A stretch of 31,712 nt of DNA from a virus. Below the pieces are notes generated by a model. The model searched no databases, was not told the DNA's origin, and was given only the letters and a program-made list of their open reading frames with translations. This document shows, one piece after another, positions 6,884 to 10,822 of the stretch. How positions within the stretch are numbered: position 1 is the first letter of the stretch; the number at the start of each line of letters is the position of its first letter. The translations under genes were made by a program, and so were the position numbers. The DNA lies in IMG/VR virus record IMGVR_UViG_3300039106_000158, positions 1 through 31,712 of that record, one strand, 5' to 3'.

Positions 6884-9286
6884 TTAGTTTACTTGTTTAT
6901 TAATTTCGTCCCAAATATCGCCTTCATTTGTGACCGAATCTTCGTCAATCAATTCAAAGTATCGGCCGCCATGATCACGTTCTTTTCTTAAATCTAATTT
7001 TTTAAATTTAGCATACTCCGAAATCCATTTCAAATATCTTCGCGATTCAAGTTCTTTCCAACCGTTTGTTTCTTGTTGGAACAATTGGATTGAAGCGTTG
7101 TTGTAATGGCGAATGTTTGATTCGATGTGGCCGTCGTTTACGAAGTCAAAGAAATCTTTGCTTGTCGCCTGGATGAATCGTTTCGAATCGGCGTTGATTG
7201 ATATTGATTGTTTCAATCCGTACTTCAAGAACATTTGAAGATTCCGGATCATGTAATTGTCAAATCGTGACCAGTCATCAACCGACCAAGAATCAAATAA
7301 TAAACGACCGTATAATTCAAGCGGTGATTTCTTTGCATTAAAGTATTGAAAGAATTCCAATTCATGGCGTCTTCGGTCGTGACTTGATCCAGCGCCGGCA
7401 ATAACATAATTCGTTGTAATAATTATCTTCGGCGACCTTTCAAATGGAATAAAGATTTCATCTTTGTTTTTTCGGTTGACGGTGATTCCTTCCGATATCA
7501 AAGAAAACAATTGCTCAAAATCAAAATTCTTTTTAACGTCGTCGAACGCCAGGACTTGCGTGTCTAAATTAACGCGCTGATAAACGAAGTCACCTTTTGA
7601 ATTGAAAGCTTTGCCGTCAATCTTTACAATCTTTCTAATATAAGACAAGGCCGTCAACATCAAAGATTTTCCCGAACCACCGTTTGCATTGTCGTCAATT
7701 TCTTGGTCATTGAAAATGATTGCCTTTTGATCGGTTTTATCTTTGAACGTGTGCAATAAATATCCAAGCGTTGATTCAAGCGCGGTTATTCGTTCCGGAT
7801 TTTCGGCCGATACTTTTGAAATTAAATCTTGAAAGTCATTCTTAAATTCATCAACTGGAATGAAGTCACGATCCAAGATTTGATTTTCCCAAATATATCC
7901 TTCGACATCAATATAAGATTGAAGAACGACGGAATTCTTGGTCACCTTTGCGACGCCATTTCGAAACGGAATCAATGAAACATCTTTTGTATCTTGAAGC
8001 ATCTTCAATCCAATTGAATCAATCATGTTCAAATGATTCTCGTTGAATAAATAAACTGACTTTGAACAATAGTTCCAAACTTTAATTTCACCGCGTGACA
8101 TCAAGAATTGAAGAACAAAGTCTTTTATTTGATCGGCCGATGAAAGACGAACTTTATTTTCTTGAACTCGGACAAATGTTGGTTTTTCAGCATTTTCCGG
8201 ATAATACTTATTAAATCCATTCTTGACCAAAAATTCGGCATATTTCAACGGTTCAATTGTAATCGATTCACCGGTCTTTTTTTGTTCAATTATCCAAAAT
8301 ATATCTTCGGAAGTTGAAAGATCCGTTTTGATATCGTCGATGACATCTTCATCAACATTCAATTGCTTTTTAATGTCGCGCAAATTTACGCCTTGTTTCA
8401 ATTTTAATTTTACCTTTTGAACCAAATCGACATTCTCAAAATACTTGATTCCTGGCGATGCTTTTTTGTACGCGCTTTTAATTGTCAATACCAATTCGGA
8501 CAAAGTAAATGATTCGGATATAAAATTGGCTTTTAAATAATATTCGGCCGTATCTTTCGAAATATTGTATTCACAAAAACAAGCAGCCACCTTAAAAATA
8601 TAAGCGTTTCTTGATCCTTCAATAAATGAACAACCGAAATCAAATTTCATTATCCGGTCAATTATCTTGTCTTCATCGGTCAAGATACATGTTGGCGCTT
8701 TTTCAGTGAAGTCGAATCCTTTTTCTTGTTCGATATCGGTATATTCTTGACAAAATTCATTGATGTAAGCTTCTGGATCAAATGATTCAAAACATACCCT
8801 TGAAACGTTGCATGAAGTTTTATCGAAGTAGTCACTTTGTATGTACTTTTCAAACGATTGGAATCTTCGTTTATGTTCGTCCTTGGTTGATTTTGGTATC
8901 TTAATAACGACCTTCAATCCTTTGCCACCTGGCGAAGTGAATACCAAATAAACAAACGGACAATTTTGCAATTTTTGCCGTTCGGCATCCATTGTGACGG
9001 CATCCGGATAATCGTCGAAATCCAAAACGCAAAGTCCTGAATGTTCAACCAATCCGTTGTCGTTTCTTTCGTTGAATGTTCCGTTGAACATAATGGCCAA
9101 TAGTGAATTTTTCAATGCGCGATGTTCTTCGGAATTTTCATCCATTGCCCGAAGTCGTTCAATCTTTTTATTTAAATCGGAATAACCGTTCTTTATTCGT
9201 TCGTAAACATCAAGAATCGTCAAAGTATATGGCGTTTCCTTGGAATTAAATAAACTTTTAAAGACGGAAAGTTTTGGAATGTTCAT
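6884..9286 (-). CDS. Primase-helicase (VirE-N/BT4734-type plus SF3/D5-like helicase)
   Basis: 800 aa, main replication enzyme. Residues 60-185 are a VirE-N/BT4734-like primase-type domain with GLCVLDFDDY (84-93; acidic D89, D91, D92) and SPGGKGLKVVIKI (118-130). Residues about 200-275 look like a PriCT-type helical domain (DRIMKFDFGCSFIEGSRNAY). The C-terminal helicase has Walker A GGSGKS (536-541), Walker B VLAFDDV (578-584), sensor IIITTN (621-626) and arginines at 638-640. It would synthesise primers and unwind DNA. A CTAAAC leader overlaps the stop of the HNH gene just upstream; only 2 bases separate them. No separate phage DNA polymerase gene is seen, so host polymerase is presumably used. 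Confidence 0.85.
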   Translation of the reverse strand: MNIPKLSVFKSLFNSKETPYTLTILDVYERIKNGYSDLNKKIERLRAMDENSEEHRALKNSLLAIMFNGTFNERNDNGLVEHSGLCVLDFDDYPDAVTMDAERQKLQNCPFVYLVFTSPGGKGLKVVIKIPKSTKDEHKRRFQSFEKYIQSDYFDKTSCNVSRVCFESFDPEAYINEFCQEYTDIEQEKGFDFTEKAPTCILTDEDKIIDRIMKFDFGCSFIEGSRNAYIFKVAACFCEYNISKDTAEYYLKANFISESFTLSELVLTIKSAYKKASPGIKYFENVDLVQKVKLKLKQGVNLRDIKKQLNVDEDVIDDIKTDLSTSEDIFWIIEQKKTGESITIEPLKYAEFLVKNGFNKYYPENAEKPTFVRVQENKVRLSSADQIKDFVLQFLMSRGEIKVWNYCSKSVYLFNENHLNMIDSIGLKMLQDTKDVSLIPFRNGVAKVTKNSVVLQSYIDVEGYIWENQILDRDFIPVDEFKNDFQDLISKVSAENPERITALESTLGYLLHTFKDKTDQKAIIFNDQEIDDNANGGSGKSLMLTALSYIRKIVKIDGKAFNSKGDFVYQRVNLDTQVLAFDDVKKNFDFEQLFSLISEGITVNRKNKDEIFIPFERSPKIIITTNYVIAGAGSSHDRRRHELEFFQYFNAKKSPLELYGRLLFDSWSVDDWSRFDNYMIRNLQMFLKYGLKQSISINADSKRFIQATSKDFFDFVNDGHIESNIRHYNNASIQLFQQETNGWKELESRRYLKWISEYAKFKKLDLRKERDHGGRYFELIDEDSVTNEGDIWDEINKQVN

Positions 9287-9288
9287 GT

Positions 9289-9765
9289 TTAGTCAATTAT
9301 TAATGCGTTTTGATATGTTAAATGCGCTTCGTATTCATTTATAAATGTACCCAAATGTTTTCTTTTTCCATTTATTTGAATTTGAACTTGCCATTTTTCT
9401 CTTTTAGTGTGCCAAGATACTCCTTTAAATTGGCTTGAATAATTTTCTTGTTTTTTAAAAGAATTAAATCGATTGCTTACTATTTGTAAATTATCAACTC
9501 TATTATCATTTTTAATATCATTAATATGGTCAACAACTAATTTCATTCCACAACAAACATGTCCCAAAAATGATTCAGCAACAACTTGATGAACCTTTTT
9601 TTGTTTTTTTATTTTGTCCTTAGACAATTCAAAAACATAATACCCTTTATTTAAAGATAATTTTAAAATTTTTTCTTTATTAAACCTTAAAGATTTTATT
9701 CTTCCGATATTACTAACTTGATAAATTCCATTATATCCAATTACATCTTTCCAAATTTCATTCAT
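9289..9765 (-). CDS. NUMOD4-HNH-AP2 homing-type endonuclease
   Basis: 158 aa from the ATG at 9765; a longer frame to 9834 would run into the hairpin leader and adds no domain. Three parts are clear: NUMOD4 (EIWKDVIGYNGIYQVSNIGR, residues 3-22), HNH_3 (VHQVVAESFLG and DHINDIKNDNRVDNLQIVSN, with H59, H80, N82) and an AP2-like DNA-binding domain (FKGVSWHTKREKWQVQIQ, 113-130 and following). This architecture is typical of free-standing homing endonucleases. The gene is visibly more AT-rich and lysine/asparagine-rich than its neighbours, which suggests recent arrival. It sits between the origin region and the primase-helicase. Confidence 0.85.
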   Translation of the reverse strand: MNEIWKDVIGYNGIYQVSNIGRIKSLRFNKEKILKLSLNKGYYVFELSKDKIKKQKKVHQVVAESFLGHVCCGMKLVVDHINDIKNDNRVDNLQIVSNRFNSFKKQENYSSQFKGVSWHTKREKWQVQIQINGKRKHLGTFINEYEAHLTYQNALIID

Positions 9766-9809
9766 AATTATTTTTTTTGTGCATAAAAAAACCCTCATTA
9801 AATCCGTTG

Positions 9810-9870
9810 CGTCTAACTTCAACTTCATTAACAAGGGGTAAACTGCCTTTTGTACTTATAATGTTAGACG
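9810..9870 (-). promoter_or_regulatory. Structured leader of the HNH/primase transcript
   Basis: Perfect 8-base complementary arms (GTTAGACG at 9863-9870 and CGTCTAAC at 9810-9817) with a 45-base loop, placed just downstream of the promoter-like element at 9882-9910. The loop can form a smaller hairpin around AAAGG/CCTTT. It could control translation or stability of the downstream mRNA. No match to a known riboswitch or intron core is evident. Confidence 0.4.
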
Positions 9871-9881
9871 AGTACATATTA

Positions 9882-9910
9882 CAAATATACGTTTTTTTAA
9901 TTAAATACAA
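9882..9910 (-). promoter_or_regulatory. Putative promoter for HNH/primase-helicase
   Basis: On the minus strand TTG (9910-9908), an 18-base spacer and TATATTTG (9889-9882) fit the Bacteroidota TTG-N17-23-TAnnTTTG pattern. It would start transcription near 9876, just before the structured leader, and drive the HNH and primase-helicase genes. Confidence 0.5.
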
Positions 9911-9935
9911 CATAAAAAAAAATATTTATTAATAA

Positions 9936-10205
9936 CGTGACGATAATGTTTGTTTCGCGACGATAAATCTTGTATCGTCACGTTTATCGTCACGGCTAAT
10001 AATCAAACTCACATTGACTTTCCGACCGAGCGTGACGATGTGACGATAAATTTCAAAAAATTTGAGATAAAAAACCACTTTTTCAAATTTAATAGAATCT
10101 CTCATATATTTTGTATCGTCACCGTCACGCTTTGACCTTCTTTTGTGACTGGCGTTGACTTTCAATCCGTGACAATGGATGTTTGTATCGTCACGCATCG
10201 TCACG
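9936..10205. repeat. CGTGACGATA iteron cluster, probable replication origin
   Basis: At least eight copies of the 10-mer CGTGACGATA or one-base variants. Plus-strand copies: 9936-9945, 9956-9965 (CGCG start), 10031-10040 (ends ATG), 10039-10048 (starts TG). Minus-strand copies, read as TATCGTCACG: 9973-9982, 9985-9994, 10114-10123 (ends ACC), 10186-10195, and 10196-10205 (starts C). Next to it (9890-9935) is a run of almost pure A/T, fitting an unwinding element. The cluster starts inside the stop codon region of the DnaA-like gene. Iterons plus AT-rich DNA plus an initiator-like gene are the usual parts of an origin. A 117-codon frame across it is only a by-product of the repeats. Confidence 0.75.
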
Positions 10206-10571
10206 CTTGTAAATGTTTTGACTAATTCGGCGCTTAATTTTGCATAAATCTTGAAAATTCTTTGCGTTTTGAACATCTTCAATCAAATTCCGTTGATCAA
10301 AAAACAAAGTTTTGTCATTGAATTCCTGGAATAAATCTTTTGTATGCAACAAATAAAATTCATCGTTTTGACTTTCAAAAATTTCCGCTTGTTTGATTCC
10401 GTGAATAATGGTCGCATGATGCTTGTCAAAAATTTCAGCAATTTCACGCAAATAATATTTTTGTTTTCTTAAATAGCAATAAAAAAACCACCTTCGATAA
10501 ACTTTTTCCGGACGATTGCAATTTTTTTTCAATTGTTCGTCTTCAATAATTTGTTTGATTCTTTCAATCAT
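10191..10571 (-). CDS. Stand-alone DnaA domain IV-like DNA-binding protein
   Basis: 126 aa. Residues 36-64 (QKYYLREIAEIFDKHHATII, then HGIKQAE) match the DnaA domain IV signature, where G-x-x-H-S-T-V-x-H-A reads here as K-H-H-A-T-I-I-H-G. There is no AAA+ ATPase part, so this is not a full DnaA. The rest is helical (NLIEDVQNAKNFQDLCKIKR). It probably binds the adjacent iterons or a host DnaA-box-like site to start phage replication or to divert host initiation. The last codons (K-R-D-D-A-stop) are themselves made of two tandem iterons, so the gene end and the binding sites are fused. Confidence 0.7.
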   Translation of the reverse strand: MIERIKQIIEDEQLKKNCNRPEKVYRRWFFYCYLRKQKYYLREIAEIFDKHHATIIHGIKQAEIFESQNDEFYLLHTKDLFQEFNDKTLFFDQRNLIEDVQNAKNFQDLCKIKRRISQNIYKRDDA

Positions 10572-10576
10572 GATTT

Positions 10577-10822
10577 TTAATTTAATTGTTTAACTCCGAC
10601 AACCGATTTGAACAAGTCCGAAGTCGTGTCAATCATTCCGGTTGCTTTTAAATAATCAATTTCAACCTTTGCGGAATTAATTATAACGCTGCCAACCATT
10701 GCGATTGATTTCGCCTTTTCAATTTCGTTCTTGATTTGTTCATTGGTCATTTGTTCGTCGTCCAATCGTTCCAGCGCCGCGAACATGTGATCGCGCAAAT
10801 CGCTTAATTTATTTCGTGCCAT
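10577..10822 (-). CDS. Conserved small phage protein
   Basis: 81 aa. Start MARNKLSDLRDHMFAALERL, then EKAKSIAMVGSVIINSAKVE and IDYLKATG. This pattern (S-D-L-R-D-H-x-F-x-x-x-E, A-K-A-I-A-x-x-x-x-x-I-x-x-S-A-K-V-E) is one of the most widespread small protein families in phages and prophages of many phyla, usually in the early replication region. No activity is known to me. Its start overlaps the stop of the upstream HNH gene by 14 bases. Confidence 0.7.
   Translation of the reverse strand: MARNKLSDLRDHMFAALERLDDEQMTNEQIKNEIEKAKSIAMVGSVIINSAKVEIDYLKATGMIDTTSDLFKSVVGVKQLN

Follow-up and report, generated by a model that had tools for sequence, protein, structure and literature searches.

The window, as we call the whole 31,712-base virus record analysed here, carries a tailed-phage gene set that lies nearly all on the minus strand. 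One part of it brings together a stand-alone gene for a DnaA-like protein, a cluster of 10-bp repeats, A/T-rich DNA and the gene of a primase-helicase, with the following features:

10191-10571, minus strand: stand-alone DnaA domain IV protein, a 126-aa ORF with KHHATIIHG
9936-10205, no strand assigned: iteron block, putative replication origin; repeats at fixed spacing with 0 indels in 17 loci
10196-10205, minus strand: iteron site CGTGACGATG within the DnaA-like gene, covering its last codons, R-D-D, and one further base
10186-10195, minus strand: iteron site CGTGACGATA, whose TGA terminates the DnaA-like gene
10168-10177, plus strand: degenerate iteron site CGTGACAATG, with a (T)GTCACG core in most relatives
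10120-10129, minus strand: iteron site CGTGACGGTG, overlapping the 10114-10123 site and invariant in the aligned loci
10114-10123, minus strand: iteron site GGTGACGATA, CGTGACGATA-type
10039-10048, plus strand: iteron site TGTGACGATA, overlapping the 10031-10040 site
10031-10040, plus strand: iteron site CGTGACGATG, CGTGACGATA-type
9985-9994, minus strand: iteron site CGTGACGATA
9973-9982, minus strand: iteron site CGTGACGATA
9956-9965, plus strand: iteron site CGCGACGATA, CGTGACGATA-type
9936-9945, plus strand: iteron site CGTGACGATA
9883-9935, no strand assigned: A/T-rich tract (91-92% A/T), candidate unwinding element
9882-9910, minus strand: promoter-like site TTG...TATATTTG, overlapping the A/T tract
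9785-9884, minus strand: structured leader RNA upstream of the HNH gene; its interleaved stems covary, and it ends in a U tract
9289-9765, minus strand: NUMOD4-HNH endonuclease gene, inserted between origin block and primase; close relatives have no such gene at this place
6884-9286, minus strand: PrimPol-type primase/SF3-like helicase of 800 aa, proposed origin-binding initiator

The AlphaFold2 model of the 126-aa protein (mean pLDDT 84.4) has DnaA-DBD entries as its top structural matches, with a Z score of 8.9 and an rmsd of 3.0 for 3pvp_A (86 aligned of 96) and a Z score of 8.5 for 1j1v_A (85 aligned of 94). Because these are the structures closest to the model, we assign the DnaA domain IV fold to residues 1-87, which in the prediction correspond to the DnaA-DBD over the whole domain; residues 88-126 or thereabouts are modeled as an additional helical tail. 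The Pfam profile Bac_DnaA_C matches the protein with an E value of 1e-4 at 22.7 bits, under its gathering score of 31.5, and is matched by 13 of 14 close relatives (best 1.5e-6). A more distant relative (L094) matches the full-DnaA profile TIGR00362 at domain IV (E 6.6e-7), and the only other Pfam matches of the 126-aa protein at E≤1 are weak ones to HTH_38 and Phage_pRha. We found no AAA+ ATPase in the protein and no Walker motif in its sequence. A preliminary description had called it a KHHATIIHG protein with a DnaA domain IV but no ATPase, and both the ORF and its fold bear this out. No credible match was obtained in a PDB sequence search with the protein and its profiles, no match by tblastn in INPHARED, and no relative of either this protein or the primase-helicase among the GTDB species genomes. 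All relatives are metagenomic contigs; flavobacterial hosts are suggested, with only distant annotated relatives pointing to them. Beside the DnaA-like gene, an 81-aa gene (10577-10822, minus strand) matches phrog_2044, 'RNA polymerase beta subunit', at an E value of 4e-20, a label that looks doubtful given the small size of the protein.

The motif CGTGACGATA occurs at one mismatch or fewer 12 times in the window, and nine of these occurrences fall within 9936-10205. Shuffling the whole 31.7-kb window yields 1.95 occurrences, equivalent to a chance expectation of about 0.02 for the 270-bp block. Two weaker sites (10120-10129 and 10168-10177), which are also recurrent in relatives, raise the count from nine to eleven, arranged as five same-orientation pairs and the single degenerate copy at 10168-10177. 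The earlier count of at least eight 10-bp repeats in both orientations can thus be put at nine to eleven sites. As had also been noted, the last codons of the DnaA-like gene consist of two tandem repeats, CGTGACGATG CGTGACGATA, which read R-D-D-A-stop. In a sister allele (L011, L021 and L028), both terminal repeats are kept and the gene ends within the first of them (...NHIA* or ...NYIA*), which indicates that the terminal repeats are DNA elements and not protein-coding repeats. The A/T tract described beside the repeats is present as well; it is 91-92% A/T and ties with two other regions as the most A/T-rich 50-mers in the window. DnaA boxes (TTWTNCACA) number 2 in the window against 6.6 expected, with none in 9936-10205. 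No GC-skew switch is seen at the block; skew follows the gene strand here and says little about an origin, since the assigned genes are almost all on one strand, and we set it aside as evidence.

We aligned the block across 17 loci, comprising the window and its relatives from IMG/VR. Every repeat is equidistant across these loci, and the 270-bp block combines a mean divergence of 11.5% with zero gap openings; the adjacent non-coding A/T and leader DNA has 10.6% divergence and 1.53 gap openings per 100 nt per pair. Variable columns of the block divide over the codon positions as 30/29/28, and pN/pS is 0.97. The fixed spacing, the lack of indels and the non-coding substitution pattern together mark the block as a rigid non-coding DNA element, and such rigid spacing is as expected of a phased nucleoprotein complex. 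With a cluster of short repeats, an adjoining initiator-type gene and A/T-rich DNA, the locus has the makeup of an iteron origin, and on these sequence characters the block at 9936-10205 is probably a replication origin.

In the 800-aa protein, the N terminus is of the PrimPol type, with profile matches to BT4734-like_N (1.1e-18), PriCT_1 and PrimPol_Db (1.4e-18); BT4734-like_N and PriCT_1 are found in all 25 primase members. The SF3 motifs follow as Walker A GGSGKS at 536-541, Walker B FDD at 581-583 and motif C ITTN at 623-626, so that a primase domain is fused to SF3 helicase motifs as in P4 alpha. The helicase assignment stands at the level of motifs, DUF5906 being matched in three of the 25 members. 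The AlphaFold2 model of the protein is poor (mean pLDDT 49), with two well-predicted exceptions: residues 726-780, which form a winged-helix-like strand-helix-helix-strand-strand arrangement at a pLDDT of about 75-90, and residues 286-326, which form three helices. Owing to the poor model, a candidate origin-binding domain is indicated by this secondary structure and one weak structural match (7rmw_E, Z 6.9 over 65 residues). The origin-binding structure of P4 alpha is absent among the structural matches listed for the primase, which means little with a model of this quality.

The interval between block and primase gene also carries leader RNAs. The first of these, about 100 nt long, is present in addition directly past the DnaA-like gene in L035-L051, L061 and L067, and in L139 and L145 it precedes an inserted gene (HNH-like by eye). 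Its 8-bp stem pairs in 128 of 128 cells, with compensatory changes in six of the eight pairs. Another stem, which also covaries, interleaves with it, and a third lies just before the U tract. This pattern of covariation identifies it as a predicted pseudoknotted, attenuator-like RNA, for which no family was matched in Rfam 15. In several members from different primase clusters (the window, L139 and L145), an insert between block and primase consists of an HNH-type gene together with its own leader, and the junction is a recurrent insertion site for this type of gene. Close relatives that lack the NUMOD4-HNH gene have another leader before the primase. A second leader RNA, ATGGCGC...GACCGAGTA...GCGCCAT...GAAAGGTC...UUUUU, lies past the iteron block and just upstream of the primase gene in L080, L073, L124, L091, L103, L099, L121, L097, L125, L135, L111, L134 and others. 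Its stems are interleaved and at least one of them covaries (AACG/CGTT, AGCA/TGCT, AACC/GGTT); it could attenuate expression of the primase. Searches with the copies from L089, L104, L125 and L008 gave no credible Rfam match, nor did the block and the leaders yield a credible Rfam family at permissive thresholds.

To ask whose repeats these are, we compared relatives in IMG/VR, where the DnaA-like protein as query gave 52 loci and each of three primase queries gave at most its best 80. At least 90 loci share the order of DnaA domain IV gene, intergenic block and primase-helicase of about 800 aa. Among the loci listed, every primase of the family (identity to the query of roughly 57% or higher) with enough upstream sequence has a DnaA domain IV gene directly upstream, and the block between the two genes measures about 190-490 bp, not counting inserts present in a few loci. 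Of 90 such blocks, 81 could be assigned a clear repeat class (CGTGAC, CGTTAC/CGCGAC or ATGACGC/ATGACAA). Where primases are at least 90% identical and DnaA-like proteins less than 65% identical, the repeat class is shared in all 139 locus pairs, as it is in all 67 pairs with DnaA-like proteins below 45%. With DnaA-like proteins at least 75% and primases less than 80% identical, neither of the two pairs shares its class, and at thresholds of at least 60% and less than 85%, respectively, 12 pairs have the same class and 39 have different ones. In partial Mantel tests, repeat class is associated with the primase given the DnaA-like protein (r 0.54, P 3e-4, an exact value not to be leaned on because locus pairs are not independent), and its r with the DnaA-like protein given the primase is -0.20; for the first 30 loci the two values are 0.61 and -0.18. 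It is the swaps themselves that serve as evidence. We counted at least six events in which the DnaA-like gene was replaced without a change of repeats, and the repeats stay unchanged across DnaA-like versions that are only 32-61% identical. In L111, a DnaA-like protein of L104 type (84%) is combined with a primase of L099 type (98%), and the repeats are of L099 type. These patterns suggest, at the level of sequence, that the repeats belong to the primase-helicase and not to the DnaA-like protein.

Recognition appears to tolerate some change. In cluster P1 of the primases, the repeat spelling changes between ATGACGC and ATGACAA though both proteins are 96-98% identical, which counts against the primase as the binder, and the DnaA-like proteins of L062 and L070, 98% identical, sit on these two spellings, so it would be unwise to over-read them. 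Among the relatives retrieved, such repeat clusters are missing wherever the DnaA-like gene stands without a primase of this family; these DnaA-like genes are followed by replisome-organiser-like, other NTPase or nucleotide-metabolism-like genes (named by eye). Sister phages (L041, L048, L064, L067 and L072) have lysis-type genes and a DnaA-like gene in common but another replication module, in which a replisome-organiser-like protein (MSGWIKIHRQILDWEW) or another gene, joined in some by an NTPase (ILGHDNVGKSYW), replaces block and primase, and the module is thus exchanged at this position. The primases of L212-L291, related to MW202828 and 39% identical to that of the window, have no iterons next to them. 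In about one third of these loci a DnaA-like gene lies some 1.8-2.3 kb upstream, and for most of the rest the retrieved flank stops at about that distance; their origin is elsewhere. Separately, the motif TCTCTTATATACCG or variants of it stands at a fixed offset past the stop of the DnaA-like gene (24-25, 36 or about 95 nt) in blocks of primase clusters P1, P2, P3 and P5 (e.g., L136, L094, L059 and L091). It may be bound by the DnaA-like protein or act as a promoter; the motif is not significant in the class of the window, and hence we make no claim for it as a site of that protein.

The reading that we favor, with somewhat better than an even chance of being right, is that of an iteron origin fired by a self-loading, repeat-recognizing primase-helicase, with the DnaA domain IV protein as an exchangeable accessory. 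We infer the origin activity, the repeat binder and the order of the steps as follows. The block at 9936-10205 and the A/T tract at 9883-9935 would form the phage replication origin, and the primase-helicase (6884-9286) would recognize the repeats through its winged-helix-like C-terminal domain and the three-helix segment near 286-326. It would then assemble, melt the A/T-rich side, prime and unwind, and the DnaA domain IV protein would bind nearby DNA, either shaping the origin or regulating the replication operon. The ATP-driven step is probably supplied by the primase-helicase. It is possible that both proteins bind the repeats.

The preliminary description had taken the locus for an origin and its initiator, the latter being an ATP-free, DnaA-type protein with its own iterons. 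The origin-like repeat block beside a DnaA domain IV gene stands; the DnaA-like protein as owner of the repeats is not supported, for the repeat type follows the primase and is constant through swaps of the DnaA-like gene. The description left the primase-helicase out of account, and none of our results bears on its idea that host initiation may be stolen. A form of that proposal, in which the iteron-binding initiator is the DnaA domain IV protein and the primase-helicase is recruited later, strikes us as unlikely, though it is the strongest of the alternatives. It accords with the fold of the 126-aa protein and with the fact that its gene always adjoins the block within the primase family, and a TGAC-like core common to all repeat variants could still be read by diverged proteins. 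It is weakened by the lack of any relation between repeat class and DnaA-like protein when the primase is taken into account, by the constancy of the block across proteins as little as 32-61% identical, by the different repeat spellings beside the 98% identical proteins of L062 and L070, and by the missing repeats in relatives that have no primase of this family.

Improbable to a greater degree is that the block is a regulatory region, with the repeats as operators for the replication operon. A promoter-like site (TTG...TATATTTG) in the A/T tract, a structured leader RNA just downstream and the gene of a small HTH protein immediately upstream would all suit such a region, but eleven rigidly spaced sites over 270 bp exceed the usual operator, and the block associates with an initiator-type helicase and not with the HTH protein. 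The last alternative, that the repeats are part of a small overlapping gene (MRDDT..., 89-99 aa, starting over the DnaA-like stop as ATGCGTGA), has an open frame in most relatives and the forward repeats in one common frame in its favor, but is refuted by the even substitution over codon positions (30/29/28, pN/pS 0.97) and further burdened by an internal stop in L021 and a variable C terminus, leaving it a negligible chance.

Returning to the primase-helicase as the proposed protein that fires the origin, we tentatively suggest, short of an even chance, that these phages carry a module whose DnaA domain IV protein, free of an ATPase, is a swappable adaptor at an iteron origin worked with ATP by a PrimPol/SF3 helicase. 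The module would be widespread and would probably belong to phages of Flavobacteriia and relatives, and the adaptor might, for example, position host factors or set the firing rule. We know of no described two-protein origin composed of a DnaA domain IV protein and a PrimPol/SF3 protein. If the proposal is right, the origin would be located in a large group of uncultivated phages, and natural part swaps, in which repeats and primase stay constant and the DnaA-like protein differs, would separate origin recognition from the role of the DnaA domain IV. In addition, the use of the DnaA DNA-binding domain alone, without its ATPase, would become directly testable in vitro.

Bacterial DnaA shares the fold of its DNA-binding domain with the 126-aa protein, but, in contrast to DnaA and oriC, the 126-aa protein has no AAA+ ATPase and the block has no DnaA boxes. 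Small DnaA domain IV-type phage proteins are already annotated: phrog_27829 is named 'DnaA-like replication initiation protein', and the 'DnaA protein' of Olleya phage Harreka_1 (145 aa) and the 'dnaA' of MW202828 (100 aa) resemble the 126-aa protein. For such stand-alone phage DnaA HTH proteins no iterons are described; the annotation of Harreka_1 has no adjacent primase-helicase of the window family, while MW202828 and its relatives (39% primase) have the DnaA-like gene about 2 kb away and lack such repeats. P4 alpha, like the window protein, unites primase and helicase in one polypeptide, and the P4 origin consists of short repeats and A/T-rich DNA, as at the window block. Its primase is of the Toprim type, whereas that of the window is of the AEP/PrimPol type, with origin binding proposed, and to our knowledge P4 has no DnaA domain IV companion. 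Precedents for repeat recognition by the helicase itself are P4 alpha, which binds its origin repeats through a winged helix (PMC4234260), and the SaPI Rep helicase, whose C-terminal domain recognizes iterons (PMC7581432). SaPI Rep and SCCmec Cch2 are self-loading helicases that, like the window protein, are element-encoded initiators with iterons adjoining their gene (PMC7581432); they differ in that their origin lies downstream of the helicase gene, where the window block lies upstream, and in that their primase is a separate protein instead of being fused. The replication proteins pRN1 ORF904 and that of Bordetella phage BIP-1 combine an AEP primase, an SF3 helicase and a winged helix, an architecture that the window protein, with its candidate winged helix, may share, and a further likeness is the small transcriptional repressor ORF56 encoded in the pRN1 operon (PMC4234260). 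Their proposed origin is a stem-loop in place of the iterons of the window.
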